Shown piece after piece: positions 7,322 through 43,557 of a DNA stretch of 43,557 nt. The notes under the pieces were generated by a model that ran no database searches, had not been told where the DNA came from, and saw nothing but the letters and a program-made list of their open reading frames with translations. Made by a program: the position numbers and the translations under genes. Numbering within the stretch: position 1 is the first letter of the stretch; each line of letters opens with the position of its first letter. This DNA is from Campylobacterales bacterium (GTDB lineage: Bacteria > Campylobacterota > Campylobacteria > Campylobacterales > Sulfurimonadaceae), in the NCBI GenBank assembly GCA_014859655.1, contig JACUTT010000017.1, forward strand, positions 1 to 43,557, written 5' to 3'.

Positions 7322-7361
7322 AACAAGTCGATATCTCTCCCAGACCTTCTAGGAGAAAACG

Positions 7362-8255
7362 ATGGGATGGCGAACACTTCATATCGCGCAGCCGGCACGG
7401 CTGAGCCTGCGGCACGACTCACTGGTACTCGATAACGGCGAGGAGTACACCATACCTCTCAGCGACCTCTCCTGCATCGTCATCGAGACACGACAGGCGA
7501 CGCTTACATCCCCCCTTATCGACGCGCTCGCTGAATGCGGAGCGGTCACCTACATCTGCGACGAAAAACATCTTCCCTCCTCAGTGCTTCTGCCTTTTCA
7601 TGCCCACAGCCGCCAGGCAGGTGTCGCACGAATGCAGGCACTCTGGAGCGAACCTTTTAAAAAACGATGCTGGCAGCGCATCATAAAGGCAAAAGTCGCC
7701 AACCAGGCCAAAGTCATTTCGGAACGCTCCCCAAAGACCCTGGAGTTTCTGCGTCGCCTTGGAACGCACATCGCCTCGGGCGACAGCGGCAACATAGAAG
7801 CGCAGGCCGCACGCGCCTACTGGAGTGCGCTCTTTGAAGATTTTGCCCGCAGGACAAACGAAAACGACATCCGTAACAGCGCGCTTAACTATGGCTATGC
7901 GATCGTGCGGGGGATGGTTGCCCGTGCCCTCGTCGGGGTCGGGTTTTTACCTGCGTTTGGCCTGCACCATTGCAGTGAGCTGAATGCCTTTAATCTTGCC
8001 GATGACCTCATCGAGCCTTTTCGTCCTTTTGTCGATGCGGTGGTACGCGAACTCCTGGACGAGGATGGCGAGGAGTTGCCCTTTCAGCTCGACATGCGCT
8101 ACAAGACCCGTCTTCTCGAACTCATCACCATGCCCTGTCGGTTTGGCACCATAGAGACCACCCTCCCTTATGCCTGCGAGCTCAGCGCCGAGTCGCTTCT
8201 GCGTGCAAGCCGTGGAAAAGACCCTTCTCTTATCGAGACGGTATCTTTTGCATGA
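7362..8255 (+). CDS. cas1: CRISPR integrase Cas1
   Basis: Metal-dependent integrase that, with Cas2, inserts new spacers at the array. The 297-residue protein has the Cas1 metal ligands in order: Glu146 (GNIEAQAARAYW), His202/His203 (LHHCSELNAF) and the acidic motif ADDLIEPFRP (213-222). The N-terminal beta domain (LVLDNGEEYTIPLSDLSCIV) is typical of subtype II Cas1. TAGGAGAAAACG precedes the ATG, a good Shine-Dalgarno. It overlaps cas2 by four bases (ATGA). No csn2 or cas4 gene is present, which defines subtype II-C. GC content is higher than in the end of cas9. Confidence 0.97.
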   Translation: MGWRTLHIAQPARLSLRHDSLVLDNGEEYTIPLSDLSCIVIETRQATLTSPLIDALAECGAVTYICDEKHLPSSVLLPFHAHSRQAGVARMQALWSEPFKKRCWQRIIKAKVANQAKVISERSPKTLEFLRRLGTHIASGDSGNIEAQAARAYWSALFEDFARRTNENDIRNSALNYGYAIVRGMVARALVGVGFLPAFGLHHCSELNAFNLADDLIEPFRPFVDAVVRELLDEDGEELPFQLDMRYKTRLLELITMPCRFGTIETTLPYACELSAESLLRASRGKDPSLIETVSFA

Positions 8256-8575
8256 GCACGGAACGATTTATGCGGCTGCTAGTCTTTTTTGATCTTCCGA
8301 CATCTACAAAAGCACAGCGCAAGCACTACACGCAGTTTAGAAAGTTTCTACTCAAAGACGGGTACGATATGCTCCAGTTTTCAGTCTATTGCAGGATCTG
8401 CAAAGGACAAGACGCCGCAGAACGCTACTTGTTACATTTAGAAACAAACCTTCCGCCAAAAGGAAATATCAGAGCCATGATTGTGACCAACACACAGTAT
8501 GAACGGATGAAAATCCTGATCGGATTGGATAAAAAAGAGGAAAAAATCGGCTCAAAACAACTCTTATTGTTCTGA
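8252..8575 (+). CDS. cas2: CRISPR adaptation protein Cas2
   Basis: Small 107-residue structural partner of Cas1 in the integration complex. It has the ferredoxin-like Cas2 fold signature with a first strand RLLVFFDLPT (Asp14) and the characteristic GYDMLQFSVYCRIC strand region. The C-terminal segment KKEEKIGSKQLLLF is typical of the strand that contacts Cas1. Its start codon overlaps the cas1 stop. It ends 58 bases before the first repeat of the array, separated by a strong hairpin. Confidence 0.95.
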   Translation: MSTERFMRLLVFFDLPTSTKAQRKHYTQFRKFLLKDGYDMLQFSVYCRICKGQDAAERYLLHLETNLPPKGNIRAMIVTNTQYERMKILIGLDKKEEKIGSKQLLLF

Positions 8576-8596
8576 TTTTTAAGTGAGATTTTTTGC

Positions 8597-8625
8597 ACGC
8601 AAAGCCCGCTGTGCGGGCTTTGCGT
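8597..8625. terminator. Perfect 13-bp hairpin between cas2 and the array
   Basis: ACGCAAAGCCCGC (8597-8609) and GCGGGCTTTGCGT (8613-8625) are exact inverted repeats with a three-base loop TGT. There is no U-run after it on either strand, so it is not a textbook intrinsic terminator. It sits where cas transcripts (plus) and crRNA transcripts (predicted minus) converge, so a role as a bidirectional transcription barrier or RNA-end stabiliser is my inference. Confidence 0.6.
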
Positions 8626-8633
8626 AGGGTGGT

Positions 8634-9463
8634 ATTATAGCGAAACCGAGTGAGATGGGGGGCTATAACCTCTTTTAGTGTAGACATCTCATACAAAATA
8701 TTATAGCGAAACCGAGTGAGATGGGGGGCTATAACAAACCCGTTTAAATATATAGGTGCTATGATATTATAGCGAAACCGAGTGAGATGGGGGGCTATAA
8801 CAAGTAATAGGGTCTATTGAATCTCTGAAGTATTATAGCGAAACCGAGTGAGATGGGGGGCTATAACTAGATGATGTAAAGGCGAACTTCAAAAAATATT
8901 ATAGCGAAACCGAGTGAGATGGGGGGCTATAACTCTGCATCGGTGTTGTACTTAAAGCGCAGTATTATAGCGAAACCGAGTGAGATGGGGGGCTATAACA
9001 ATCTAAGCTATCCATGAGCCTCATGAATGATTATAGCGAAACCGAGTGAGATGGGGGGCTATAACTGTATATTTAACCGAATCAGATCTCAAGGTATTAT
9101 AGCGAAACCGAGTGAGATGGGGGGCTATAACATTAAATCGTTTGGTTCAAGAAATCTAAATATTATAGCGAAACCGAGTGAGATGGGGGGGCTATAACTC
9201 GGGTGCTTTCGTTTGAGCGCAAGGATACATTATAGCGAAACCGAGTGAGATGGGGGGCTATAACTAGTCACTACAAATATGACAGTTTTCAATCATTATA
9301 GCGAAACCGAGTGAGATGGGGGGCTATAACCTTGTGTAACCAATAAAGGCAAACACATTGATTATAGCGAAACCGAGTGAGATGGGGGGGCTATAACAAA
9401 TGATATGGTGTGGGCCATCGAATTGTGATTATAGCGAAACCGAGTGAGATGGGGGGCTATAAC
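8634..9463 (-). CRISPR. Type II-C CRISPR array, 13 repeats and 12 spacers
   Basis: The plus-strand repeat is 36 bases, beginning ATTATAGCGAAACCGAG and ending GGGGGGCTATAAC. Repeats start at 8634, 8700, 8766, 8832, 8898, 8964, 9030, 9096, 9162, 9229, 9295, 9361 and 9428, and all 12 spacers are exactly 30 bases. The repeats at 9162 and 9361 are 37 bases because the G6 run is G7; otherwise the repeats are identical. The tracrRNA anti-repeat shows that crRNA is read from the minus strand. In that sense each repeat begins GTTATAGCCC and ends CGCTATAAT, so a TATAAT -10 box abuts every spacer, as in Neisseria and Campylobacter II-C arrays where each spacer has its own promoter. Initiation about six bases into a 30-base spacer would give a 24-base guide. 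No spacer obviously matches elsewhere in the window. Confidence 0.98.
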
Positions 9464-15186: not shown

Positions 15187-15888
15187 ATGGACAAACGCAT
15201 ACGAAACTCAACGGCGGAATTTTTGATTTTCACTTCTCAAAGCGGTGAAGACAGCATCGAAGTGAAGGTTTTTGATACGTCCGTTTGGCTGACGCAAGCT
15301 ATGATAGCGCAGCTTTTTGATGTACAAAGACCGGCAATCACAAAACACTTGAAAAATATTTTTGAAACTGCCGAATTGGATGAAAATTCAGTTAGTTCCA
15401 TTTTGGAACATACTGCCAGTGACGGCAAAATCTACAACACAAAATACTACAACTTAGATGCCATCATATCCGTAGGCTACAGAGTAAACTCCAAAAAAGC
15501 GACGCAGTTTAGACAGTGGGCGACAAGTGTACTTAAAGAGTTTGCCATCAAGGGCTTTGTGCTCGATAAAAAACGACTTGAAAACGGTTCATTTTTAGGC
15601 GAAAACTATTTTGATAAACTCCTTGAAGAGATACGAGAGATTCGCCTGAGCGAACGGATGTTTTATCAAAAGATAACTGACATTTATGCCACGAGCGTAG
15701 ACTACAATAAAGACGATGCAACAACCAAAAAGTTTTTTGCAAAGGTACAAAACAAGCTTCACTTTGCGATCCATGGACACACGGCGGCAGAACTGATCTA
15801 CAACAGAGCCAAAGAGCACACGGCACTATTGGCTGGAAGCGCCATTATGATAATTATTGAAACTCATAGGGTCCAATATCTACAGTAA
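15187..15888 (+). pseudogene. RhuM-family gene, 3' end lost
   Basis: The first 215 or so residues match the RhuM (virulence RhuM/RhuM-like) layout: VWLTQAMIAQLFDVQRPAIT (helix-turn-helix-like), then YYNLDAIISVGYRVNSKKAT, then FRQWATSVLKEFAIKGFVLD, and KLHFAIHGHTAAELIYNRAK. Family members usually run to about 330-350 residues, but here the frame leaves the family pattern at about 15830 and ends at 15888 with unrelated residues (MIIIETHRVQYLQ). Its 3' end overlaps the 3' end of the large lipoprotein gene, so the missing part was probably replaced when that AT-rich segment arrived. RhuM genes are common in genomic islands; function is unclear. Confidence 0.7.
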
Positions 15889-18865
15889 TGCCAACTTTTC
15901 GAGAGTTTCCATCTAAATCTGTTGTTGGTATAGTAATCCCAGTAAAACTATTAGTTCCTGTATCGATTAAATCTGAAGTAGTAATCAGATGATAATCATT
16001 AGGCTGGTCAATAAAACCAAAGTTAATATTTACGTCTAAATTACTAATAGAAACAATATTTGTTGATGTGACTTTATTTAAATCAAGATAGCTATTAATT
16101 ACATTTAAATTATATGTTGCAGACGTTAGAATTTCTACAAATTCGTGATTATGAGTAAAAGCACTGTTAACAATTGTCATATTATCAAGATTACTTGCAT
16201 TAATAGTTCCTTCTGTATTGTTATTATCAGCAAACATTGAATTGATTATTTTTGCATCATCAAACGAAGTAGCCAATGTACTTCTACCTGTATTCTGTGT
16301 GAACAAACTATTCGTTATTGTTAATGAACGTATGGTGCAATCATAACACATTAGGAATAGCGCAAAGTCATTTGCGTGCTCTTTGAATATACAGCCCTCT
16401 ATATCAAAAGACAAATCACTCACAGAATATATTCCTGTTCCCAATCCATTAGCCCCAGTAAGTTTATTTCTTATAAATTTTGTATTTTTCATTGTTAGCT
16501 TCTGCTGACTATCAGAAGAAAGGTATAAACCTCCCCCCATACTAAGAGCACTATTATTTTCAAATACAGTATCTGTAATACTAGGGCTATATTGGCTATC
16601 CCCACCTACAGCAGCATAAACTGCCCCACCATCCCCACCAGCTATGTTATCTAAAAAAGTTGTATTATCAATTTCAATTTTAGCCGTATTTATTGCTCCA
16701 CCGTTACTCGCGGAATTATTAAAGAATAAAGAGTTAGAAACTTTTGTTGTGACTGCAATTGTAGCACCTCCATTGGATAATATACTTTGATTATGATGAA
16801 AACTACAATTATCTATATGTAAAGTCATCCATGCATGAATAGCACCTCCACCCTTTGAGCTGGAAGTAGCTCTACCATTCTGAAATGTAATATTCTTAAT
16901 GTATAATTCATTTAGATAATTATTCGGTGTAACATTAAGTATCTGCTGCTGATATTCTCCACTTAGTATTACATTTTCACGACTAGAACCAATAATGGTC
17001 AAGCGATAATCTTCATTATCTAAGAAGGTAAAAGTCCCGCCACCATCATCCGTAGTCTTATAGGTTCCATCAGCCAAAATGATTTTATCATTCATACCAT
17101 TTTGTGCAGCATTAGTTAATGCTATTCTAAATTCTGCTGTAGTCGATACATGTGTAACTAAATTATCAGCATTAACTACAATTGTATCGGCTGTGCTGTT
17201 TACCTTTCCATCATTAACAACTAATTCAATTACATAGCTACCATATTTATCTGCTGTAAATGTAGGACTTGTAGAAGATGCCTCTGAAAATGTTGCTGTA
17301 CTTCCAAATGGTTTACTTACAAAACTCCAAAAATAAGTTAAAGTATCAAAGTCTGCATCTGTTCCCGAGCCATTTAAAGTAACGGTAATACCAGTATCTA
17401 CGTTCTGATCTACTCCAGCATTGGCTACTGGAGCTGAGTTTGAAGTTGATGCGATAACTGTTACTGTATCTGCGGCAGAGTTGACTTTTCCATCATTAAC
17501 CACAAGCTGAATTACATAACTTCCATCAAGGTCTGCTATAAGCGTTGGATTAGATACTGTTGCAGATGAAAGAGCTGCATTTGAACCACTAGGTTTAGAA
17601 GTAATCGTCCATGAATACGTCAAAGCATCTAGGTTTGCATCTGAGCTTAGTGAACCATTTAGAGTTACTGTTGAAGTCGTATTAACGTTCTGATCTACTC
17701 CAGCATTGGCTACTGGAGCTGAGTTTGAAGTTGATGCGATAACTGTTACTGTATCTGCGGCAGAGTTGACTTTTCCATCATTAACCACAAGCTGAATTAC
17801 ATAACTTCCATCAAGGTCTGCTATAAGCGTTGGATTAGATACTGTTGCAGATGAAAGAGCTGCATTTGAACCACTAGGTTTAGAAGTAATCGTCCATGAA
17901 TACGTCAAAGCATCTAGGTTTGCATCTGAGCTTAGTGAACCATTTAGAGTTACTGTTGAAGTCGTATTAACGTTCTGATCTACTCCAGCATTGGCTACTG
18001 GAGCTGAGTTTGAAGTTGATGCGATAACTGTTACTGTATCTGCGACAGAGTTTACAATTCCGTCATTTACCACAAGCTGAACTACATAACTTCCATCAAG
18101 GTCTGCTACAAGCGTTGGATTTACAGCTGTTGCAGATGAAAGAGTTGCATTACTTCCTGTAGGCTTTGAGATAATACTCCATACATAAGTCAAAGCATTT
18201 AGGTTTGCATCTGAGCTTAGTGAACCATTTAGAGTTACTGTTGAAGTCGTATTGACGTTCTGATCGACTCCAGCATTGGCTACTGGAGCTGAGTTTGATG
18301 CACTCGGAACCGTCCCTCCTGCAGTTAGGATAGACGTATCCATGCTCTCTTTTGCTTCGATCGCACTTATTAAAGGAGTGCCTATAGCATTTTCGATTTC
18401 CGTTTTTGTGGTTGTCTCAAATGAAACTGAAGTAAGATCAATAACAGAGGGCAATAGAGTTTCCATAGCAGCATCTATATTTATGACACCTACGATTGAA
18501 CGATCATTTAAGGTTTGCAGTATTCTTGCTAAATTTACGGCAGCAACATTATTGTTTGGAAATAATGAGTATGGAGTGATAGGCTCAACTTGTGCGGCTA
18601 CCGTACCAATAGAGAGAGTCCCAATATAAAATGTCACATCACTTCCGATATTACAGGTGTACTCTCCATTATTGTTGGTCATACTGTTTGCGCCTGAGCT
18701 ACAAACGTACTTTAAGCCCTTAACTGGTGCATCTATGAATTGGCCGGTTACTGTTGCAACTGTAGTGGTGTCAGAAGAGCTTTCAGCACCTCCGCCTCCA
18801 CCACAGCCGCTAAATGCCAACACCACGACTATGCCCATTGCTACAATTGGAATAACTTTTTTCAT
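15854..18865 (-). CDS. Large PKD-repeat and beta-helix surface lipoprotein
   Basis: The 1003-residue predicted lipoprotein begins MKKVIPIVAMGIVVVLAF and has a lipobox FSGC followed by glycines. I start at ATG 18865 (AAAAGG upstream) rather than TTG 18871. After a linker domain (about 25-185) come four Ig/PKD-like repeats of 95 residues each (about 190-570), each starting near APVANAGVDQNV and ending near VNSAADTVTVIA. The second and third are identical at DNA level. The C-terminal 430 residues read as a right-handed parallel beta-helix rich in N-x-x-F and GGA turns (SNGGATIAVTTKVSNSLFFN), ending in DLDGNSRKVGITVDIGPYEF, the choice-of-anchor Q type end. This suits a cell-surface adhesin or glycan-binding protein. 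The gene is AT-rich compared with neighbours, consistent with transfer. Confidence 0.85.
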   Translation of the reverse strand: MKKVIPIVAMGIVVVLAFSGCGGGGGAESSSDTTTVATVTGQFIDAPVKGLKYVCSSGANSMTNNNGEYTCNIGSDVTFYIGTLSIGTVAAQVEPITPYSLFPNNNVAAVNLARILQTLNDRSIVGVINIDAAMETLLPSVIDLTSVSFETTTKTEIENAIGTPLISAIEAKESMDTSILTAGGTVPSASNSAPVANAGVDQNVNTTSTVTLNGSLSSDANLNALTYVWSIISKPTGSNATLSSATAVNPTLVADLDGSYVVQLVVNDGIVNSVADTVTVIASTSNSAPVANAGVDQNVNTTSTVTLNGSLSSDANLDALTYSWTITSKPSGSNAALSSATVSNPTLIADLDGSYVIQLVVNDGKVNSAADTVTVIASTSNSAPVANAGVDQNVNTTSTVTLNGSLSSDANLDALTYSWTITSKPSGSNAALSSATVSNPTLIADLDGSYVIQLVVNDGKVNSAADTVTVIASTSNSAPVANAGVDQNVDTGITVTLNGSGTDADFDTLTYFWSFVSKPFGSTATFSEASSTSPTFTADKYGSYVIELVVNDGKVNSTADTIVVNADNLVTHVSTTAEFRIALTNAAQNGMNDKIILADGTYKTTDDGGGTFTFLDNEDYRLTIIGSSRENVILSGEYQQQILNVTPNNYLNELYIKNITFQNGRATSSSKGGGAIHAWMTLHIDNCSFHHNQSILSNGGATIAVTTKVSNSLFFNNSASNGGAINTAKIEIDNTTFLDNIAGGDGGAVYAAVGGDSQYSPSITDTVFENNSALSMGGGLYLSSDSQQKLTMKNTKFIRNKLTGANGLGTGIYSVSDLSFDIEGCIFKEHANDFALFLMCYDCTIRSLTITNSLFTQNTGRSTLATSFDDAKIINSMFADNNNTEGTINASNLDNMTIVNSAFTHNHEFVEILTSATYNLNVINSYLDLNKVTSTNIVSISNLDVNINFGFIDQPNDYHLITTSDLIDTGTNSFTGITIPTTDLDGNSRKVGITVDIGPYEFQ
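17401..18042. repeat. 285-bp tandem repeats encoding PKD domains
   Basis: Units begin at CGTTCTGATC at 17401, 17686 and 17971, and again (CGTTCTGATCG) at 18256, giving an exact 285-base period (95 codons). By eye the 17401 and 17686 units are identical over all 285 bases, and identity continues about 70 bases into the third. The flanking units are diverged. This indicates recent duplication or gene conversion, and the copy number could vary by recombination. Confidence 0.9.
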
Positions 18866-18978
18866 AAACAAACCTTTTGATATTAACTATTTTTAGCAAG
18901 TCTACATTTTCTTAACCAAATCTAAACATAATTAGTGAATATTTAATTTAAAGATATTACAAAATGAAACAGAATGAC

Positions 18979-33409: not shown

Positions 33410-34648
33410 TTATCCGGCTATTTCGACCATTGACCACATCGGCAAAAAGATGCCCAGGGCCAAGAGCAGGACAAATCCCGCAATGGCCGCAATGAGTATC
33501 GGCTCGATCATCGTCGCCACATTATCCACAATATAATCATACTTGCTTTTGAAAAGTTTTGTCAGTTTCTCCAGCATCGCCCCGATAGACCCGCTCTGCT
33601 CGCCGGCTTTGAGCATCTGCAGCGGCATGGCCTCAAAAAGCTCCGTCTCGACAAAGCCCTGATGCAGGGTCTTGCCCTCTTCTATCGCGTTCGCGACCTT
33701 TTCAAGCTGGGTATGCATGTAAAGATTGTCCACGATGCCGTTGGCTGTGCGAAGCGCGTCGATGATAGGAATCCCCGCCGCCGTCAAAACATCAAAGATA
33801 TAGATAAAACGCCCTATCATCGCAAAATAGGTCACCTGGCCGACGATGTAGATGCGAAGCAGGGCCTTGTCTGTCTTAAGGCGCATGCTCAGACTGTTTT
33901 TGTAGAGCCTGGCAAAAAGAGCCGAGACGACAATGGCCCCGCCGAGAATGTAAGGGCCGTAATGGACGATGGCATTTTCCAGCCAGAGCAGAAACTTCGT
34001 CGGAAAAGGAAGCTCGAGTTTTGCCGAACGGAAAAGATCTTCAAACTGCGGCACGACGAAGGTGATGACGACCGTAAAGGCGATCCCCATAGCAACGATG
34101 ATAAAAAGCGGATAGCGCGTCGCCTTTTTAAACTTGACCCGGTTGTCGTAGATCTCCTGGATGATGTCGGCCAGGCGGCGGATGGAGTTTGAGAGCGATC
34201 CCGTCTTTTCTCCCAGATCAAACATCGAGATACTCAGTGTCCCCAGCTGCAGAGTATATTTTCGTGCGGACTCCGTGAGACTCTGGCCGCTTTCGATATC
34301 ATCAAGGATCTCTTGAAATATCGCCTTGAGCATTGCGTCTTCTGTCCCCGAGATCGCCTGCTCCATTGCATTGTTGATCGGTATGCCCGCATCGAGCATC
34401 ACATAGAGCTGTTCAAGCAGCGCAATGTAGGGTTCATCCTTGACCACCCTCGCCTTGATGGGATCGTCCCACTTCTGCTGAAACTTCCTAAACCTCATGC
34501 TCAGCGGCTGCGCGATCTCATCGATATTTTGCATCACACCCAGAGATTTTTGCGAAAAGAGCTTCAGTGCTTCGAGACGGTTTTGCGCTTCTATCGTTTC
34601 AAAATAGCGGTTTTTTCCCTGCTTGTAGCGTATGCGAAAATATTTCAT
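33410..34648 (-). CDS. Type IV pilus/type II secretion inner-membrane platform protein (PilC/GspF-like)
   Basis: Polytopic inner-membrane protein that couples the cytoplasmic ATPase to pilin assembly. Its 412 residues include two T2SSF domains, each beginning with a helical bundle (FIALLEQLYVMLDAGIPINN-like: YIALLEQLYVMLDAGIPINN and IGRFIYIFDVLTAAGIPIID) and ending in hydrophobic segments (FIIVAMGIAFTVVITFVVPQ; LIAAIAGFVLLLALGIFLPM). The domain repeat and length are those of the family. The start overlaps the stop of the ATPase gene by one base, so the two are translated together. Confidence 0.93.
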   Translation of the reverse strand: MKYFRIRYKQGKNRYFETIEAQNRLEALKLFSQKSLGVMQNIDEIAQPLSMRFRKFQQKWDDPIKARVVKDEPYIALLEQLYVMLDAGIPINNAMEQAISGTEDAMLKAIFQEILDDIESGQSLTESARKYTLQLGTLSISMFDLGEKTGSLSNSIRRLADIIQEIYDNRVKFKKATRYPLFIIVAMGIAFTVVITFVVPQFEDLFRSAKLELPFPTKFLLWLENAIVHYGPYILGGAIVVSALFARLYKNSLSMRLKTDKALLRIYIVGQVTYFAMIGRFIYIFDVLTAAGIPIIDALRTANGIVDNLYMHTQLEKVANAIEEGKTLHQGFVETELFEAMPLQMLKAGEQSGSIGAMLEKLTKLFKSKYDYIVDNVATMIEPILIAAIAGFVLLLALGIFLPMWSMVEIAG

Positions 34649-36321
34649 CAGATATCTTTGACAACCCGAAGGACTTCATCCAGCGTAATGATTCCCTGGG
34701 TCGCTTTTTTAAGACCATCGAGCAGCATGGGCTGAAACCCGTCATGTTCTTGTGCGTAGCTGGCGATCTCATGGTTGGTGGCACCCGTAGCTATCATTTT
34801 TGAGATCTCTTCGCTGATCACAAGGATCTCCGAGATCATGATACGCCCGCTATAGCCGCTCATGTCACATTTGGAGCACCCTTTTCCTTTGTAGAAGATC
34901 GTATCTCTTGAGATATGCGACTCGACCTTTGCCAAAAGATTTTTATGCGGCTTCACCTCATGCCTACATGATAGGCAGATCTTACGCACCAGCCGTTGAG
35001 CAACGATCGCCAGAAGCGAATCCGCGATCAGATAGTTTTGAAGTCCCATCTGCGCCATACGGCTGATCGCTGCAGATGCGCTGTTGGTGTGCAGGGTTGA
35101 GAAAACAAGGTGGCCAGTCAGCGATGCCTGCGCGGCTGCATCGAGCGTCTCTGTGTCGCGAATCTCGCCCACCATGATAACATCAGGGTCCTGACGCAAA
35201 AATGATTTTAAGGCGGCATTGAAGGTAAAGCCGACCTTCTCGTTGACTTGAACCTGCTGGACAAGCGGCAGCTGATACTCTATGGGGTCTTCAATCGTCA
35301 GGACCTTGTTCTGTATGCTCTTGATCTCGTTGAGCGCAGCGTAGAGTGTTGTCGTCTTTCCGCTTCCTGTCGGTCCCGTAATAAGGACGATGCCGTAGGG
35401 GGAGTGGATGGCATTGGAGAAGGTCTCCAGGTTTTCATCGACAAAGCCGAGCTCTTCAAGCTTAAGAAGGATCTTGTGCTGATCGAGAATACGCATGACG
35501 ATCGATTCGCCGTAAAGCGTAGGCGTCGTAGAGAGACGGAAATCGTATTTTCTCCCCTCTATCTCGTAAGAGAAGCGGCCGTCCTGGGCTTTGCGCTTTT
35601 CTGAGATATCAAGATGGCCCAGGATCTTTATGCGCGAGGCCAGTGCATAATAGATATCCAGATCAAAAACAAAGGTCTCGTGCAGTACGCCGTCAACACG
35701 CACACGAATAGACATCCCGTCAGCTGTCGGCTCGATATGAAGGTCGCTGCCGTTTCGTAAAATTGCATCTTTGATCGAGAGGGCGATAAGGCGCATAATC
35801 GCGCTCTCTTCGCTCTCGTTTTTCATGCCTTCTGCGTGAATCTCACGCTTAACCTCAGCCGCTATAGCGCGGGTCCGGTTGATGATGTCAAGGCGCTGGA
35901 AGATACGTTTGACATCATCTTCGAGCGTGAGTTTCAAGGCGATAGGCTTGGTGGCAATAAAGCGTTCAAGTGCTTCCAGCGCCTCGTAGTTCAGGGGATT
36001 GGAGGTGGCGATATAGATATACTCGCTGTCTTCTTTAAAGGGAATGGCCTGGGCACTCTCCAGGAGATTGAAGGGGTACTTTGAGAGGTTCTCAAAATTT
36101 ATCTTCACGCCGAAAAGGTCGATAAACTCGATATCGAGCTGTTTTGACAGAAGTAGGGACATCTCTTTTTGGGTGATGTAGCCCTCGTCTATCATCAGCT
36201 CACCCATCTTCTTGGTGTAGGAAAACTCTTTTTGAAGAGCAAGGATATGGCTTAGCTGCTCACCTGTGATCAGCCCCTCAGAGACAAGAAGGTCGCCTAG
36301 CCGTAGTGTTCTTTTAATCAT
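34648..36321 (-). CDS. Type IV pilus/type II secretion assembly ATPase (PilB/GspE-like)
   Basis: Hexameric cytoplasmic ATPase that powers pilus extension. The 557 residues show the N-terminal MshEN-type domains (LGDLLVSEGLITGEQLSHIL; LMIDEGYITQKEMSLLLSKQ), Walker A GPTGSGKTTTLY near residue 320, Asp box and Walker B (IEDPIEYQ; LRQDPDVIMVGEIRDTETLD) and a tetracysteine zinc knuckle with CLSC and CSKC. It therefore is an assembly rather than retraction (PilT) ATPase; no pilT is in the window. It overlaps its neighbours at both ends by one base, and precedes the platform protein gene. Confidence 0.95.
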   Translation of the reverse strand: MIKRTLRLGDLLVSEGLITGEQLSHILALQKEFSYTKKMGELMIDEGYITQKEMSLLLSKQLDIEFIDLFGVKINFENLSKYPFNLLESAQAIPFKEDSEYIYIATSNPLNYEALEALERFIATKPIALKLTLEDDVKRIFQRLDIINRTRAIAAEVKREIHAEGMKNESEESAIMRLIALSIKDAILRNGSDLHIEPTADGMSIRVRVDGVLHETFVFDLDIYYALASRIKILGHLDISEKRKAQDGRFSYEIEGRKYDFRLSTTPTLYGESIVMRILDQHKILLKLEELGFVDENLETFSNAIHSPYGIVLITGPTGSGKTTTLYAALNEIKSIQNKVLTIEDPIEYQLPLVQQVQVNEKVGFTFNAALKSFLRQDPDVIMVGEIRDTETLDAAAQASLTGHLVFSTLHTNSASAAISRMAQMGLQNYLIADSLLAIVAQRLVRKICLSCRHEVKPHKNLLAKVESHISRDTIFYKGKGCSKCDMSGYSGRIMISEILVISEEISKMIATGATNHEIASYAQEHDGFQPMLLDGLKKATQGIITLDEVLRVVKDI

Positions 36322-36872
36322 TATCGGTACCTATGCGTTTGGATTTTTTGCTGCTCTTTATAGCGGTCGATGTGAATCATCTTATCGGTGTAAATATCCA
36401 GGAAATCATCTTTGGAGCCTATCTGTATATGCTTTGGGCTCAAGGAGATGAGGATGAACTCCTCTTTTTTGATCGCCTCAAAGACCCGTGAGAGGAGATG
36501 ATTGCTGCGAGGAAGCACATATGCCGAGAGATCCGCGTCTTCAAACATAAACTGCGAAATCAGACGTTTTTGCAAGATGAGTGAGGAAAAGTAGACAGCC
36601 GCTTCACGTGAGGGCCTGCTTGAATGCAGGCGCTGCTGCAAAACGGCAAGAAAATCGATATAGTCCACTTCTGCGCAGACCTGGCCGGTTGCAATCAGTA
36701 TCTTCTCATCCTTGGTCCCGGCGTGAAAAAGCTTGCGTCCGAAATGACAGGCCCTCTGCACGTCCTTGTTTTTGTACGCCTCTAAAAAGTTTGTCGCATC
36801 ATCGGATGCACCCAGAAGAGTCCATCCGATCACCGCTGCCAAGAGCCACTTCATCTTTTTTAGTTTTCCCAC
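36321..36872 (-). CDS. Exported hypothetical protein of the pilus operon
   Basis: The 183-residue product has a signal peptide (MKWLLAAVIGWTLLGASDD from an internal Met, or from MGKLKKM). The mature part is helical, with SEL1/TPR-like segments (FLEAYKNKDVQRACHFGRKL; IDFLAVLQQRLHSSRPSREA) and a basic C terminus (YKEQQKIQTHRYR). Two cysteines in the repeats could form a disulfide. It overlaps the TPR gene at its start (36860-36872) and the ATPase start at its stop, so it is part of the operon. It probably acts in the periplasm; function not known. Confidence 0.7.
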   Translation of the reverse strand: MGKLKKMKWLLAAVIGWTLLGASDDATNFLEAYKNKDVQRACHFGRKLFHAGTKDEKILIATGQVCAEVDYIDFLAVLQQRLHSSRPSREAAVYFSSLILQKRLISQFMFEDADLSAYVLPRSNHLLSRVFEAIKKEEFILISLSPKHIQIGSKDDFLDIYTDKMIHIDRYKEQQKIQTHRYR

Positions 36873-37576
36873 TCGGACAAGAGCATCTCTGCCTTGGCCG
36901 AATCTTTGTACTGAAGAAAGACGTTAAGGATCTTTTTCGCCTTCTCCTTGTCTCCTAGCGCAAAGACTGATTTGGCATACAGGAGCCAGGCATCTTCTTT
37001 GTTTCTGTCGAGCTGGTTTGCCTTTTTTGCCCAGATACCTGCATTTTTAAAGTCTTCATTAAAATAGTACTGTCTGGAGATGTAGATCGCAATAGCGTAG
37101 GACTTCTTTTTGTCATACTTCTGGACCCATTCATCTAGCGATTTGTCTTCGTTTACTGCCGAAAAGTAGACCTTGTCTGTGCTCTTTTTTGGCGGCGGGG
37201 ATCTGTTTTCACTAATCTGTAAGATCTGCTTTTGCGGCGGTTTTTGCACAGCAGGCAGTGAAAGAGGAGCTTTTTTCTGCTGAATCTTCTCGACTGCTTT
37301 TTCAACTTCATCCGCAGAGACAGGGCTCAGGTAGGAGGGACTCACTGTTTTTTTCTCAATGATTTTTTCTTTTGGTGCCGCAGCCACTTCTACGACTGCT
37401 GTCTGCACGGCAGCGGCCTGCATCTGCTGCCACGCTCCCCCGGAGAAATCCTCATAGATATAATAAAGACTGAAGGGCAAAGAGACGAGTACAATAAAGA
37501 GACCTAGCCCTTTTAATGAGCGTTTGAGATGATAGCTTCTGCATTGTGAGTGCAGCCTTTGCAAACGGTTAGACAT
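36860..37576 (-). CDS. Membrane-anchored TPR protein (MshN-like)
   Basis: The 238-residue bitopic protein has a basic N terminus, one transmembrane helix (about residues 23-42, KGLGLFIVLVSLPFSLYYIY), a Pro/Lys-rich linker (APKEKIIEKKTVSPSYLSPV) and C-terminal TPR repeats (about 150-238, KSYAIAIYISRQYYFNEDFK; AGIWAKKANQLDRNKEDAWL). The layout is that of MshN of the MSHA pilus system, which sits in the periplasm and is thought to help secretin or pilus assembly. It overlaps the ExeA-like gene by eight bases. The operon position between ATPase genes matches msh clusters. Confidence 0.75.
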   Translation of the reverse strand: MSNRLQRLHSQCRSYHLKRSLKGLGLFIVLVSLPFSLYYIYEDFSGGAWQQMQAAAVQTAVVEVAAAPKEKIIEKKTVSPSYLSPVSADEVEKAVEKIQQKKAPLSLPAVQKPPQKQILQISENRSPPPKKSTDKVYFSAVNEDKSLDEWVQKYDKKKSYAIAIYISRQYYFNEDFKNAGIWAKKANQLDRNKEDAWLLYAKSVFALGDKEKAKKILNVFLQYKDSAKAEMLLSEWEN

Positions 37577-38357
37577 TGATCAGTCCTATCTCGATTGCTG
37601 CCATGTTTAGAAGACATTTTGAAGGCTCTTGAAACTTTTTTATCCCCATCTCCTGGGCCTCATGCAGAAGCATAAACTCCGTGTAGAGAAGTTTTTTCAG
37701 GTAGCGAAAATTTCCCTGGGTCAAAGCATAGATCTTTTTAGCATGACGCTGATGAAAGGTGAGCACAGAGCTGTCTTTTGAAAAAATAAGCTGTGTATTG
37801 AGGTAGATATCCAGCTCTTTGACGCTGAGCCTTCCTAGTTCGATCAGCCTGTGCGGCCGCGACTTGAAGTGCGACTGCTGCAGGATCTTTCTTCCCTCTG
37901 CCTCATGCATGGCAAAGACGATCCAGAAAAGCCGTGAATCACTTAAAATACGTACAAATTCGAGCATCTCGTCGCTCAAAAGCTGCGCTTCATCGAGCAT
38001 CACAAGGGTCTTCTTCTCTTTATAGAGTTCCTGGGCCTGTTTTTTAAGCTCTTCTATCTCAATGCCTGCGGGAAGCTCTCCATGGTGCTCGATAAGGCGG
38101 CGTAAAAAGATCAAAGGTGTCAAGAGCGGGGTCTCAAACAGCAGGGGCGGGTTGCTTGTCTCCTGCGTGTTTTTAAGATGGTTGAGGAGGTGGGTTTTTC
38201 CGCTTCCGGGCTGGCCGATAAGAAAGATCATCTGCCCTAGCTTCTCCTGCAGAGCAGACTTGATAGTCGAAAGCGCTGTATAAGCCGAGCGGACTTCAAA
38301 GTATGGACTTTCTACCCCTTCTTCAAAAAGCAAGGCGTGTTCTAACCATCGCGACAT
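37569..38357 (-). CDS. ExeA/MshM-like AAA ATPase
   Basis: The 262-residue cytoplasmic ATPase has Walker A GQPGSGKTH (48-56), Walker B TLVMLDEAQLLSDEMLEF and sensor motifs (RILSDSRLFWIVFAMHEAE). ExeA-type proteins, with or without a peptidoglycan-binding domain, help place secretins; MshM is the MSHA pilus version. This one ends without the peptidoglycan-binding domain seen in ExeA, like MshM. Its stop overlaps the TPR gene by eight bases and its start overlaps the secretin gene's stop by one base, supporting joint action with the secretin. Confidence 0.82.
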   Translation of the reverse strand: MSRWLEHALLFEEGVESPYFEVRSAYTALSTIKSALQEKLGQMIFLIGQPGSGKTHLLNHLKNTQETSNPPLLFETPLLTPLIFLRRLIEHHGELPAGIEIEELKKQAQELYKEKKTLVMLDEAQLLSDEMLEFVRILSDSRLFWIVFAMHEAEGRKILQQSHFKSRPHRLIELGRLSVKELDIYLNTQLIFSKDSSVLTFHQRHAKKIYALTQGNFRYLKKLLYTEFMLLHEAQEMGIKKFQEPSKCLLNMAAIEIGLINV

Positions 38358-39967
38358 CAGTTCTCCTCTGTCTTGTTCGCCGGGTCTGTGTCAAACTGAC
38401 GCCCCTGCGTGCGCTGAATGATCTCTTCTTCTTCGATAGTCGGTATGCGGTTTTGTTTGATGATCTGCGGAACGACAACGACAAAGAACTCTTTTCTGGA
38501 GACCTTTTTTGTCGTGCTGTGAAAGAGTCTGCCAAGAAAAGGAATATCTCCCAATAGCGGAACCTTGGTATTGACATTCAGCTTTTCTTTTTGGACCAGT
38601 TCGCCGATAAGGACTTTTGAGCCGTCTTTGACCTTGACGATAGAGGTCAGCTGCTTGATCTGCATATCGGGCGGAATGCTGCGTACCCCGCTCTCATCTT
38701 CCGGACTTGTCTCCCCGCCCGTCTCGGAACTGTCCTGAATCCGGCTGCTTACGGGATTGATACGCAAGATGACATGCCCGTCATCGGTGACTTCAGGGAT
38801 GATTGTCAGCGAAAGTCCGACAAATACCGAGCCCAAAGAAAAGGTCGTCGAGGCACTCGGCGTCACACTGCCGATCGTATCGATCTGGCCGTTTTGGTAC
38901 CGATAGTTCAGCTGATCGCCGACATTGATCAACGCCGGCTGGTTGTTCAGGGTCATCACTTTTGGCGCAGAAAGAATCTCCACTTCCCCATAGACCTTCA
39001 AGAAATTGATCAGTCCCTCCATCGTGAAATTAAAACCGGCGGTATAGAGACTGTCGCTGCTTATCAGACCGTTATCGCGTGTTCTTGAACCTGCACCATT
39101 GGAACCGAGTGATAGCTCGAACTTGCTCCAGTCAATTCCTATCTGCTGCTCATCCGTAAAAGTCACTTCAAGGATACGGGTTTCGAGCAACACCTGTTTG
39201 TGCATTCGCTTTTGAACATGGTCTATGTACTCTTTTACCCGATCGAGCTGTTTGTAAGAACCGCTGACGGTAATGATGCCCGCATCACGGTTAACCATAG
39301 ACCATGAACGTACCTCATTGCTGTCACCGTCACGCTGGAGTATTCCGTCGATCTGGTACTTCAACTGTTCCCAAAATGTAAAATCAGAGATCGCCTTCGT
39401 GGAGGTGAAGTCCGTATTGTCCCCTTTTTTGATCGAACCAAGACCGCTGTACTCAACAATGTTTTGCGATCCTCTCTCTTGCGCGCTGGCACGGGTTTGC
39501 ATGCCGCCCATGCTCGCACTGTCTTGGTTTTGGTTGGTGGAAGCGCCGACTGTGACCTCTCTGGCGGAAAAGGTACGCATCTGCGTGACATTGATGTAGT
39601 CGATATTGAATGAATGCGTCTTGAGATAGGCGACATTCAGACGCGAGAGCGCGCTGTCGTACTCGTAAAAAAGGTTGTTCTCATGCAAGAGCAGTTCAAA
39701 GAGCTCGTTGAGTGTAAAGTCTTTGATGTAGAGTGTATTCAGCCTTGCGTCAAGCTTCGCAGACGTCAGCGCGTCGGAGTGCAGGACGGAGATCCGGCAA
39801 GAGGCTGCAAGATCGGAAAGAACATCCTTGATCGTGATGCTGTGTGCCGCGGTGGGTTCGACATTGAGTGAAAAAAGTTTGTTGTCACAGTTGCCGGCTT
39901 GGAGGCTTGAGCCGATCAGACCATAGGCTAGACCCAAAGACATAATAAACCTTTTCATCAAACTCAT
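38357..39967 (-). CDS. Secretin (PilQ/GspD/MshL-like)
   Basis: Outer-membrane channel through which the pilus passes. The 536 residues include a signal peptide (MKRFIMSLGLAYGLIGSSLQ, after MSL), an STN-like domain (about 45-110, ITIKDVLSDLAASCRISVLH), an N1-type domain and the C-terminal secretin domain (about 260-500: LLETRILEVTFTDEQQIGID; SAPKVMTLNNQPALINVGDQ; VPLLGDIPFLGRLFHSTTKK). The VPxLGDIPxLGxLF motif is the secretin hallmark. The layout with one N0/STN and one N domain fits MshL more than GspD, which has three to four N domains. It overlaps mshK/pilP-like at its start. Confidence 0.92.
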   Translation of the reverse strand: MSLMKRFIMSLGLAYGLIGSSLQAGNCDNKLFSLNVEPTAAHSITIKDVLSDLAASCRISVLHSDALTSAKLDARLNTLYIKDFTLNELFELLLHENNLFYEYDSALSRLNVAYLKTHSFNIDYINVTQMRTFSAREVTVGASTNQNQDSASMGGMQTRASAQERGSQNIVEYSGLGSIKKGDNTDFTSTKAISDFTFWEQLKYQIDGILQRDGDSNEVRSWSMVNRDAGIITVSGSYKQLDRVKEYIDHVQKRMHKQVLLETRILEVTFTDEQQIGIDWSKFELSLGSNGAGSRTRDNGLISSDSLYTAGFNFTMEGLINFLKVYGEVEILSAPKVMTLNNQPALINVGDQLNYRYQNGQIDTIGSVTPSASTTFSLGSVFVGLSLTIIPEVTDDGHVILRINPVSSRIQDSSETGGETSPEDESGVRSIPPDMQIKQLTSIVKVKDGSKVLIGELVQKEKLNVNTKVPLLGDIPFLGRLFHSTTKKVSRKEFFVVVVPQIIKQNRIPTIEEEEIIQRTQGRQFDTDPANKTEEN

Positions 39968-40356
39968 TTTTTGTCCTTTTCACTAATTTCAAATAATTTT
40001 TTATGCTCACTCAATCGAAGAATTTTTATTTTGTTTCCTTTTTTCAGCGTGACGCTGCGCGCATCAATCTTAATGATCTTTCCCTCAGAAAGGCTCTCTC
40101 CCAGGCTATACCAGCGTCCATTGATATATGCCCGCTTGCCCATAATGGCGATCAGTTCAGTTTTTACACTTTTATGAGGAGGCCTTTTGGTCTGTTTTTT
40201 GTTCAAAAGCGGTTGTGTTCTTTTAAAAGGGTCGTATCTCGGTATCTCCAGGCTTTTCTGCTCTTCATTTTCCAAAAGCTCGTCTATCGTTTTGTGGATC
40301 GGCGAAGCGGCCGCAACAAGACAAAGCATAAGGCTCATCGAAATTGTCCGTCTCAT
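39964..40356 (-). CDS. PilP/MshK-like periplasmic pilus protein
   Basis: The 130-residue product has an N-terminal signal/anchor segment (MRRTISMSLMLCLVAAASPI). Downstream, PRYDPFKRTQPLLNK precedes a small beta domain (TELIAIMGKRAYINGRWYSL, then EGKIIKIDARSVTLKKGNKI) of the HR/PilP/GspC homology type, and ends in a basic KEISEKDKK-like tail. Such proteins link the inner-membrane PilN-O-type proteins to the secretin. It lies between the PilO-like gene and the secretin gene, the usual position for PilP or MshK, with four-base overlaps on both sides. Confidence 0.7.
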   Translation of the reverse strand: MRRTISMSLMLCLVAAASPIHKTIDELLENEEQKSLEIPRYDPFKRTQPLLNKKQTKRPPHKSVKTELIAIMGKRAYINGRWYSLGESLSEGKIIKIDARSVTLKKGNKIKILRLSEHKKLFEISEKDKK

Positions 40357-40985
40357 AGTTTTATCCCGTAACCTGTGATGGTGATGGCAAAAGCGGGCAC
40401 AGAGCTCTTCTGTTCAAGCGTAAATTTGACATGATCTACCACCAAAAGGGCTTCTTGCGACTCTATAAAGCTTAAAAGTTTCAGCACCGAACGGAAGTCG
40501 GCCTCGCCTTCGATGAGGATGCTTCCGCGCTTGTCGATCTGCGCCTCGTAGGGACTAAGCGTGTTATCTATGGTGAGCTTGTCTATCGCTACGCCCAGCG
40601 TAACAGACTCTTTCAAGATCCGCTCGAGGGTGTCAGCCATCCCCTTGGCATCGGCACTGAGGTAGTCCATCCGCTCAAGTTTTGTCCGCAGCGCTGTCGC
40701 CTTGAACTCGCCCTCTTGGTGCACCTGGGCCAAAAGCAAAATCTTTTTTTGCTCTTTTTCGATCTTCGCCTCGAAGGCTGAGATCGCATTGTTGTCCAGC
40801 TTGCTCTGCAACTGTGCCGCTTTTTCACTCTTGGCCAGAGCCTCTTCTGCCAGATCAGCACCGAAAAAATAGTAGAGGCCTAAAACAATGCCAAGCGCGA
40901 CAGAAAGCATCAGCATTGTCCTGTTTTGTTTTGGCATCGCCCCGAGCTTATAATCGATATCCTGGAGTTGTTGCTGAAAACTCAT
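40353..40985 (-). CDS. PilO/MshJ-like inner-membrane pilus protein
   Basis: The 210-residue bitopic protein has a cytoplasmic start, a transmembrane segment at about 23-45 (RTMLMLSVALGIVLGLYYFF), a coiled coil (about 50-100) and a C-terminal ferredoxin-like domain (LTIDNTLSPYEAQIDKRGSI, then FRSVLKLLSFIESQEALLVV). This is the PilO/GspM/MshJ layout, partner of PilN. It is encoded between the PilM/N-like and PilP-like genes with four-base overlaps, as in pil and msh clusters. Confidence 0.8.
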   Translation of the reverse strand: MSFQQQLQDIDYKLGAMPKQNRTMLMLSVALGIVLGLYYFFGADLAEEALAKSEKAAQLQSKLDNNAISAFEAKIEKEQKKILLLAQVHQEGEFKATALRTKLERMDYLSADAKGMADTLERILKESVTLGVAIDKLTIDNTLSPYEAQIDKRGSILIEGEADFRSVLKLLSFIESQEALLVVDHVKFTLEQKSSVPAFAITITGYGIKL

Positions 40986-42457
40986 CGCAGCACTTCTATT
41001 TTACTTTCGTAAATATTCTTGTCCAGAGAGATCTCGTTCGTGCTCGCCTCTTTGTAGCCTGCTTCCATCCATCTTTGCATGCAATTGGCAATCGTTGCTC
41101 TTTGCACATAGTCGGCGATGACATGAATCTGCATACTTTTCGTCCCGTTTTGCTCCATCGAAACAGCTGAAAGCCTGTACTCTTCGAGAATGTCGATCGC
41201 ATCATACATCATCTTCTGGCGGATATCTCTTGCGTGCATCAGTATGGGCAGGCTTTGCAGTGTGAGCTCGTAGACACGGATGCCATCGTGGAGTGTTTTT
41301 ATCTTTGCCTCGTCTTTAGAAACTTCTGCGCGGATGGTTTGGAGTTTTTCGCTTAAACGTTTCGACCTCTCTTCGATCTGCTGAAGACTGCTTTGCAAAA
41401 CAGAGATCTTCTTATCAAGTGCCGCACCTTCGCTGTAGTAGTAGATAGGATGAAGCAGACCCAGCACCAAGGCTGCTGCACTCACCGAAATCAATTGACC
41501 GGAATAGCGCTTATGCCAGGCAGCGCGGCGCTCGTAAGGACTGAGATTGAGTGGACTTTGGACCTGATCATTGGCGCAGAGATAGAGATAGCTCGCCTTG
41601 GCAAAGCGATGAGCATTGATGCTCTTGTCTTTTTCGCAGAACAGTGTCTGCATAGGAATATTCTCCATACCGTAAGCGGCATAGATCCGGTCTAGCCCCT
41701 CCAGCGTGTTTGCGTTAAAATCGACATAGATCTTATCAATACTCTCTATACCAAAAAGACCGCGCTTGTGGTTAATCGTATGGATGATCTTTTCGACTTC
41801 TTTTGAAAAGGTCAGCTGAAGCTGGTCAAAAAAGACCCTCTCTTCTACGGGGTAGTTCTCTTCGCTCAGTCCGTAGTTGCTGAGTATGTTTTTGCAGCGC
41901 TGGGTGTCCACATTGATCGCTTTGGCCAATGCTTCGACCGAAGAGGTGCGTCGATGGGCGATGTACTTTCCGTGATGAAAGAGTACGGCGTAAGACTCCC
42001 GGTCGCCAAGATAGAAGAAAAGATCTGTCTGCGCCTCGACTTCATTACGCTGGTAGTAGCTCTCATAGGTGATAAACGAGGGGACGATCCAGTCAAGTGC
42101 CTTGTTCTTTTTAACAAAATTTCCGTAATATTCATTCAAGGCATCGTGCGAACAGGCAAAGGCCTCGACTATCGTGCTACTTTCAAGCTCTAAGGCATGG
42201 TTATAGGTAGCAACTTCATACTCTTGCGCGGAGTTCAGTCCCCCCTCTTCGTGCATCTTGATCTCTGTTTGTATCTGCCGTTCCGTCTCTCCCAAAGAAG
42301 AGAGAAACTTGAAACTGCCGATGTGCAGACGCGAGAGGGGAATACAGGTGCCTACCTGATATTTTTTGGCTACACTGCTGTCGCATGGGGTAAATGTTGT
42401 ACCGTCAAACAGCCATGTCTCGCCATACTCGATATAAACGATCGGTTTCATACTCAA
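40982..42457 (-). CDS. PilM-PilN-like (MshI/GspL-like) pilus protein
   Basis: The 491 residues combine an N-terminal actin-like region (about 1-310), of which MKPIVYIEYGETWLFDGTTF and FFYLGDRESYAVLFHHGKYI fit a PilM/GspL nucleotide-binding-like fold, with one transmembrane helix near 320-345 (SAAALVLGLLHPIYYYSEGA), a coiled coil and a PilN-like ferredoxin domain (LSAVSMEQNGTKSMQIHVIA). PilM and PilN are separate in most type IV pilus systems, but fused in GspL and BfpC-like proteins. It starts the inner-membrane complex genes of this operon, overlapping the PilO-like gene by four bases. Confidence 0.72.
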   Translation of the reverse strand: MSMKPIVYIEYGETWLFDGTTFTPCDSSVAKKYQVGTCIPLSRLHIGSFKFLSSLGETERQIQTEIKMHEEGGLNSAQEYEVATYNHALELESSTIVEAFACSHDALNEYYGNFVKKNKALDWIVPSFITYESYYQRNEVEAQTDLFFYLGDRESYAVLFHHGKYIAHRRTSSVEALAKAINVDTQRCKNILSNYGLSEENYPVEERVFFDQLQLTFSKEVEKIIHTINHKRGLFGIESIDKIYVDFNANTLEGLDRIYAAYGMENIPMQTLFCEKDKSINAHRFAKASYLYLCANDQVQSPLNLSPYERRAAWHKRYSGQLISVSAAALVLGLLHPIYYYSEGAALDKKISVLQSSLQQIEERSKRLSEKLQTIRAEVSKDEAKIKTLHDGIRVYELTLQSLPILMHARDIRQKMMYDAIDILEEYRLSAVSMEQNGTKSMQIHVIADYVQRATIANCMQRWMEAGYKEASTNEISLDKNIYESKIEVLR

Positions 42458-42475
42458 AAGCTTTTTCCCCCGGTC

Positions 42476-42949
42476 CTAATTACACGGCATTATAGCAAAA
42501 CCGCTTTGTGGCAGTATTGAAATGCTTTTTGTTTCACCATTATAGGTTAAACTTATCATTTTCTTGGCGCTAAGAAGCGTTGCCGACGTAAAATCCCCTT
42601 CATGCGGCCGCCCTTTTGCGTCAAAACAGAGCGTCCCCGCATCCGGATCGTCAATATGCAGAAGATAAGCGATTTCCCCATCGCTTGCATAGCTCTGAAG
42701 GGCCGCTTTTGTCAGTTCTATGCAGCCATTCGCATAGTCAGGCGCAGCATTTTCCGTGCCAAAGCCATTGTGTTCATAGCCTATCCCCTTATACTGAGCC
42801 TGGCGTATCTTCGCGGCAATGAACTGGGCATCATTCATTAGATAGTTCTCTTTAAAACTCGACCCGGCGACCCCGGCTAAAATTCCAATGATAACGACGA
42901 TAAAAATAAGCTCGGTGAGGGTAAAACCGGATCTTTGTTGCTCTTTCAT
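42476..42949 (-). CDS. Pseudopilin (GspH/FimT-like)
   Basis: The 157-residue prepilin has a cleavage signal EQQRSG-FTLTELIFIVVIIG with Glu5 retained and a hydrophobic stalk helix. The mature part contains a GspH/FimT-like domain (NDAQFIAAKIRQAQYKGIGY; CIELTKAALQSYASDGEIAY) and two or three cysteines. It overlaps the next upstream gene by four bases. Such minor pilins prime pilus assembly. Stop TAA at 42478-42476, 18 bases before the PilM/N-like gene starts. Confidence 0.85.
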   Translation of the reverse strand: MKEQQRSGFTLTELIFIVVIIGILAGVAGSSFKENYLMNDAQFIAAKIRQAQYKGIGYEHNGFGTENAAPDYANGCIELTKAALQSYASDGEIAYLLHIDDPDAGTLCFDAKGRPHEGDFTSATLLSAKKMISLTYNGETKSISILPQSGFAIMPCN

Positions 42950-43401
42950 GGGCGTTGCAATGTCCTTCTTAAGATTTGGCTTACGCTCTTAGTGCCCATG
43001 CTCGCCCTGGCTTCAACCTCCATGAGCACCATCCCGTGGCTCTGCTCCGTCTGGATGGGATAGCTCAAGGTCCCGCACAAGATGGCGTCCGCACTGCCTT
43101 CAAGCAGGTAGTAGCGTGTGATATTGACATCTGCGGCATAGGTGATCCCGTTTTTCGTGACCGCAGGAGGCGTGTAACTCGAAAGACAGCCTGTATTTCT
43201 GTCATGCAGGCTGATCGCAAGCATACTCATCTCAATAGCGCTGTTAAGATAGAGCTCTGTCTGTTCGCGGATATAGGTGTCAGCGGTATGCTGTGACGCA
43301 ATGCGGGCATACTGTAAGATAACGATCATCAGACCGCTGATAATAAGAATGATCATTAAAGCCTGCCATAATCCGAAGCCTTTCCTGGCAAAAACTTTCA
43401 A
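42946..43401 (-). CDS. Pseudopilin lacking Glu5 (GspK-like tip pilin candidate)
   Basis: The 151-residue product starts at TTG 43401 (AAAAGG upstream) with RKG-FGLWQALMIILIISGLM. The hydrophobic stalk and Gly-Phe cleavage site are those of a prepilin, but the position of the conserved mature Glu5 is Gln. Only the tip pseudopilin GspK/PilX-like proteins regularly lack Glu5, so I suggest a tip position. The mature domain has two cysteines (NTGCLSSY, DAILCGTLSY). It is the first complete long gene of the operon inside the window. Its TTG start overlaps the TGA of the micro-ORF upstream (TTGA). Confidence 0.78.
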   Translation of the reverse strand: MKVFARKGFGLWQALMIILIISGLMIVILQYARIASQHTADTYIREQTELYLNSAIEMSMLAISLHDRNTGCLSSYTPPAVTKNGITYAADVNITRYYLLEGSADAILCGTLSYPIQTEQSHGMVLMEVEARASMGTKSVSQILRRTLQRP

Positions 43402-43463
43402 AAAAGAGCCTTTTCAAAGAAAGTCGAAACATACTGCTTTCCTGTTTGAATGAAAGTCTTCAT
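43398..43463 (-). CDS. Micro-ORF 3 in the 65-bp tandem repeat (21 residues)
   Basis: ATG at 43463-43461, preceded by AAAAGGCGG, reads MKTFIQTGKQYVSTF, then FEKALF, and stops at TGA 43400-43398. The TGA overlaps the TTG start of the pseudopilin gene. It differs from the next unit by two residues (Leu to Phe, Val to Leu). Whether the peptide is made is unknown, but the Shine-Dalgarno and stop/start overlaps fit translational coupling into the pilus operon. Confidence 0.4.
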   Translation of the reverse strand: MKTFIQTGKQYVSTFFEKALF

Positions 43464-43528
43464 TAAAACACCGCCTTTTCAAGGAAAGTCGAAACATACT
43501 GTTTTCCTGTTTGAATGAAAGTCTTCAT
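43463..43528 (-). CDS. Micro-ORF 2 in the 65-bp tandem repeat (21 residues)
   Basis: ATG at 43528-43526, with AAAAGGCGG upstream, reads MKTFIQTGKQYVSTF, then LEKAVF, and stops at TAA 43465-43463. The last base of that stop is the first base of the next ATG (TAATG). Confidence 0.4.
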   Translation of the reverse strand: MKTFIQTGKQYVSTFLEKAVF

Positions 43529-43557
43529 TAAAACACCGCCTTTTCAAGGAAAGTCGA
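43528..43557 (-). CDS. Partial micro-ORF 1 or C terminus of an upstream gene, cut by the window edge
   Basis: The minus strand from the edge reads STFLEKAVF and stops at TAA 43530-43528, which again overlaps the next ATG. It may be a further micro-ORF or the true end of a longer gene outside the window from which the repeat was copied. Confidence 0.35.
   Translation of the reverse strand, partial: STFLEKAVF

Follow-up and report, generated by a model that had tools for sequence, protein, structure and literature searches.

We analyzed contig C52 (GenBank JACUTT010000017.1), taken whole as the window of 43,557 bases, from a 2.17-Mb assembly in 85 contigs (GCA_014859655.1) of a Campylobacterales bacterium of the Sulfurimonadaceae. 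The subject is a tandem repeat at the right end of this contig which, read on the minus strand, leads directly into a prepilin-like gene of an MSHA-type pilus operon. In that direction the array consists of a unit cut by the contig end, a complete 65-base unit and a variant unit, and Tandem Repeats Finder placed it at 43408-43557 with a period of 65, 2.3 copies and 97% matches. Every unit is a reading frame of 21 codons (hereafter micro-ORF, for open reading frame) with AAAAGGCGG, a Shine-Dalgarno-like sequence, seven bases 5′ of its own ATG. The borders between units are all TAATG and the final border is TTGA, so that the start and stop of each micro-ORF overlap those of its neighbours. The last unit terminates within TTTTTTGA, whose TGA overlaps the TTG that starts the prepilin at 43401.

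An earlier, sequence-only reading of this DNA had described a 65-base repeat of chained 21-residue micro-ORFs feeding into a pilus operon, a final TGA overlapping the TTG of a prepilin gene and a variant unit that retains frame, Shine-Dalgarno and overlap. Our sequence inspection and the Tandem Repeats Finder result confirmed this description; its spacing of eight bases between Shine-Dalgarno and ATG was in fact seven. All stop-start overlaps and Shine-Dalgarno sequences within the array are intact, and the reading frame stays open in A-type and G-type units alike, whose micro-ORFs differ by two conservative changes, too few for a synonymous versus non-synonymous test. The Shine-Dalgarno before the prepilin is degraded (AAAAGGCTC), with a predicted anti-Shine-Dalgarno duplex of -3.4 kcal/mol versus -11.1 kcal/mol for the units. 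RNA folding of the units and of the array was no better than that of shuffled sequences (z 0.58, -0.21 and 0.48), and a Pfam search with the 21-residue peptide gave no match. The features are collected in Table 1.

Table 1. The repeat array and the adjoining pilus genes in the window
Feature	Coordinates	Strand	Basis
A-type unit, 3′ tail (STFLEKAVF, TAA overlapping the next ATG), cut by the contig end	43529..43557	-	sequence; first 55 minus-strand bases recur 65 bases on
Full-length A-type unit (65 bases) with micro-ORF MKTFIQTGKQYVSTFLEKAVF; its stop overlaps the following ATG (TAATG)	43464..43528	-	sequence, Tandem Repeats Finder
Last unit, of G type, with micro-ORF MKTFIQTGKQYVSTFFEKALF; its TGA overlaps the prepilin TTG (TTGA)	43398..43463	-	sequence
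Shine-Dalgarno-like AAAAGGCGG, seven bases 5′ of the ATG of the complete unit	43536..43544	-	sequence; predicted anti-Shine-Dalgarno duplex about -11 kcal/mol
Shine-Dalgarno-like AAAAGGCGG 5′ of the ATG of the last unit	43471..43479	-	sequence; predicted duplex
AAAAGGC, weakened Shine-Dalgarno 5′ of the prepilin TTG, direct-repeat edge of the array, likely ancestral junction	43408..43414	-	sequence; predicted duplex -3.4 kcal/mol
Downstream gene for a 151-aa prepilin-like protein with TTG start and a cleavage-type motif, KGFGLWQA; MshP-like from its position	42946..43401	-	homologues in 196/228 family genomes
Remaining genes of the MSHA-type pilus operon: N_methyl prepilin, secretin close to MshL, AAA ATPase, TPR protein, MshE-like ATPase, T2SSF protein	33410..42949	-	profile matches

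The other side of the array was recovered from a second contig. When the same genome was searched with the repeat, there was a single additional hit, covering 55 bases where contig C75 begins, and no copy of the unit elsewhere. C75 starts inside the array from its other side and supplies the upstream junction: on its minus strand a prepilin of 296 residues ends in CGVHVSKQKAVF, with its TAA overlapping the ATG of the first unit (TAATG), and 5′ of it lie genes for a further prepilin of 190 aa and for a protein of 760 aa. The expectation that the upstream gene would end in STFLEKAVF was thus largely right: its C-terminus is SKQKAVF, with AAAAGGCGGTGTTTTAATG identical to that in the unit. We take the upstream and downstream prepilins to be MshO-like and MshP-like respectively, labels which follow gene order as in the Vibrio MSHA locus and not a profile match.

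The contig break itself bears on the number of units. Read on the minus strand, C75 ends in 55 bases that are also present in C52 at offset 13, and C52, on its minus strand, opens with 55 bases that appear again after 65 bases, followed there by a different base (A or G). Among the contig ends sampled, there are several others at which a dispersed repeat occupies exactly the first 55 bases, so the assembler probably worked at k = 55. When the region was modelled with different unit numbers, its longest exact repeat was 8 bp with one unit, 42 bp with two and 107 bp with three; at k = 55 the modelled graph assembled through two units without branching and broke with three or more. A break at this k thus calls for two or more A-type units in addition to the G-type unit, which makes an array of probably at least three units. 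For the rightward extension to count units, as had been proposed, C75 together with the loop argument gave this minimum. As assembled the repeat is real; a contig end falls within it, and its parts are divided between C52 and C75.

We then compared the junction between the two prepilins in 228 genomes of the family, in which 196 carry homologues of the downstream prepilin, and at 29 homologous loci. In all 29 the micro-ORF is absent and the upstream stop overlaps (28 loci) or abuts (one locus) the downstream start directly; by the first match in each, the junction types were TAATG (11), TGATG (10), TTGA (7, some of which also read TGATG) and TAGATG (1). The Shine-Dalgarno of the downstream gene usually lies inside the conserved end of the upstream prepilin, the near-invariant SKQK[AV]VF, whose codons (AAA CAA AAG GTG GTN TTY) form it with a predicted duplex of down to -11.2 kcal/mol; the loci L018-L046 are those in which these last codons are almost invariant and spell the next gene's Shine-Dalgarno. 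The constraint on these residues may come from the translation of the neighbour and not from the protein. The pair has the marks of translationally coupled genes: a stop-start overlap, a Shine-Dalgarno in the upstream 3′ end and conservation of both in relatives. The two closest genus-mates, G001 and G002, with upstream proteins about 70% identical, have the junction without insertion or micro-ORF. A pattern search of the 228 genomes for similar tandem junctions found no other genome, and the repeat, too, was found in this genome only. Searched with the unit DNA, the relatives gave at best E 4e-4 over at most about 40 bases, which is chance-like, and a few of these matches were to the shared junction itself. 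Related public contigs were metagenome-assembled genomes of Sulfurospirillaceae and Campylobacteraceae, at 27-29% identity. Elsewhere in the genome under study (G000:C74:54802-56171, L011) lie diverged homologues of both the upstream and the downstream prepilin, a second such pair with 28-31% identity and some 80 bases separating the matched stretches.

In composition the unit is a copy of the coupling junction joined to a linker. The junction accounts for 16 of the 65 bases (AAAAGGCGGTGTTTTA), identical to the end of the upstream gene; the other 49 bases were not significantly similar to either prepilin gene, to the pilus region, to C75 or to the surrounding 21 kb, with scores not above those of shuffles. 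The suggestion that the array is a decayed duplication of the upstream 3′ end thus held for the shared junction (AAAAGGCGGTGTTTTAATG) and found no support in the linker. An ancient duplication of the whole last 65 bases of the upstream gene was considered and is not supported, since the linker gave 15 identities against 11.8 expected by shuffling (ungapped, p ~0.18). The unit and these last 65 bases both start with ATG and share the stop, a coincidence of 21 codons. AAAAGGC occurs at both edges of the array and resembles a short direct repeat. The last junction (AAAAGGCTCTTTTTTGA) is closer to those of the genus-mates (e.g. AAAAGGCTGTATTTTGATG) than is the unit's own junction; accordingly, it is probably the ancestral one, with the insertion 5′ of it.

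We favour, at a probability of about two in three, the explanation that a short segment was inserted at the conserved MshO-like/MshP-like coupling junction and amplified in tandem, and that it was kept only because coupling stayed unbroken, ribosomes presumably using the chain and the peptide presumably having no function. On the best reading of the sequences, and as far as sampled, insertion and amplification would be recent and lineage-specific. A segment carrying a copy of the junction (Shine-Dalgarno, last codons and TAATG) and the 49-base linker would have entered the conserved junction and then multiplied, the 65-base period leaving a one-base stop-start overlap at each step; a ribosome ending the upstream pilin would terminate, reinitiate and pass along the micro-ORFs to the downstream pilin. 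Coupling reporters in E. coli and Haloferax indicate that termination-reinitiation needs short overlaps, is almost lost at a spacing of about 20 nt and can make do with the last 15 nt of an upstream gene (PMC10666635). Since coupling needs overlaps, any insertion breaking the chain would be likely to uncouple the two pilins, whereas this array may be tolerated because its period retains every overlap and hence coupling.

Several points weigh against this explanation. The prepilin's own Shine-Dalgarno is weaker than those of the units, and coupling to the prepilin may therefore be poor. Frame preservation is weak evidence of selection, as one in three duplications keep phase by chance and the unit types differ at few bases. 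Use of the chain by ribosomes is a prediction from sequence, and the linker matches neither the two genes nor the 21 kb around them significantly.

Other readings give the array a role of its own. It could be a variable-number translational rheostat, in which slippage would alter copy number, tune the ratio of two minor pilins and produce heterogeneous or phase-variable piliation. The assembly loop made by the identical A-type units is what a slippage-prone array would give; with a strong Shine-Dalgarno and an overlap in each unit as against the weak prepilin junction, ribosome delivery via the units could matter; and a synthetic short upstream ORF with an internal ribosome-binding site lifts downstream translation up to 20-fold (PMC13255528). 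The array was nevertheless found in one species only among the 228 genomes, and we hold such a putative rheostat to be unlikely. We find it quite unlikely, too, that the micro-ORFs are an expandable ribosome relay, that is, peptide-less tandem cistrons whose slippage-set count would determine the number of ribosomes arriving at the downstream minor pilin, a translational control of pili of the variable-number tandem repeat type. That the 21-residue peptide is itself functional and produced in several copies would agree with the open frame and two conservative changes in the two unit types; with no Pfam match, no homologue found among relatives and too few differences for showing selection at the protein level, we consider this very improbable. 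The variable-copy relay or peptide of the sequence-only reading stands in its architecture, the overlaps being intact and coupling family-wide without micro-ORFs, while copy-number regulation and peptide gained no positive support.

The remaining readings concern how the array came to be there. The unit might be a small mobile element, or one like the mycobacterial interspersed repetitive units (MIRUs), inserting at stop-start junctions with a short ORF that spares the host operon. AAAAGGC on both flanks is like a short direct repeat, the insertion point is exactly at a coupling junction and MIRUs in mycobacteria do insert so (PMC12548453); the lack of any further copy of the unit in its own genome or in 227 relatives renders such an element decidedly unlikely. 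An array collapsed or spurious at the contig break, the real chromosome having one unit, would fit its position at a contig end of a fragmented assembly (85 contigs). Against it, one or two units would make no break at k = 55 (longest exact repeats 8 and 42 bp), the loop requires reads joining one A-type unit to another and the other contigs that start with exactly 55 repeat bases back the overlap reading. An artefact is thus highly improbable.

MIRU loci show stop-start overlap with flanking genes, tandem arrays and variable copy number. Like the mycobacterial MIRU (e.g. senX3-regX3), the array has short ORFs whose start and stop overlap those of the neighbours. It differs in sitting at a single locus, split over C52 and C75, where MIRUs are dispersed at many loci, in its internal overlaps (TAATG, -1, rather than -4) and in its Shine-Dalgarno-rich unit, found in a Campylobacterota-type genome with no sign of mobility. 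By analogy, it may work like a MIRU; membership or kinship is not claimed. The array also resembles overlapping gene pairs of the termination-reinitiation type (ATGA/TGATG/TAATG) in its stop-start overlap, in the Shine-Dalgarno within the upstream 3′ end and in the coupled genes encoding parts of one machine (PMC10666635), yet it multiplies the junction into consecutive non-essential micro-ORFs. The nearest engineered analogues are synthetic bicistronic leaders and booster short ORFs, in which a short leader cistron with an internal Shine-Dalgarno beside its stop feeds the next start (PMC13255528); the array, by contrast, is natural, operon-internal and repeated in series. If translated, the chain would be a natural series of consecutive termination-reinitiation steps, which could serve to measure the ribosome flow lost per step and to test whether operons can bear insertions only as long as coupling survives. 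The array further suggests that coupled repeats of the MIRU kind need neither a mycobacterial host nor a mobile family to arise.

The assignment of the operon itself rests on its gene content. A secretin close to MshL, an MshE-like ATPase, an inner membrane T2SSF protein and prepilins, which together characterize an MSHA-type type IV pilus operon, were all found, with profile matches to T2SSE and MshEN for the ATPase, to T2SSF and to N_methyl for the prepilins. The secretin matched the MshL model with E 9e-72 and 241 bits, just below the cut-off of 250.

Three other features of the window were observed. A Type II CRISPR-Cas locus at 4325-9463 encodes a Cas9-like protein (998 aa), Cas1 and Cas2, with a CRISPR array of about 12 repeats of TATTATAGCGAAACCGAGTGAGATGGGGGGCTATAAC at a period of 66 bases. 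The left end of the contig (1-97) is a dispersed repeat of about 100 bases that contains TGAAGGCAGTTGGGGTTTTTAGAGGTGCCC and is matched at some 46 places in the genome, with both orientations represented and many of the matches at contig ends. Finally, three tandem 285-base repeats, 94% alike, at 17400-18298 sit inside a minus-strand ORF of 1005 aa (15854-18871) that encodes a large repetitive protein.
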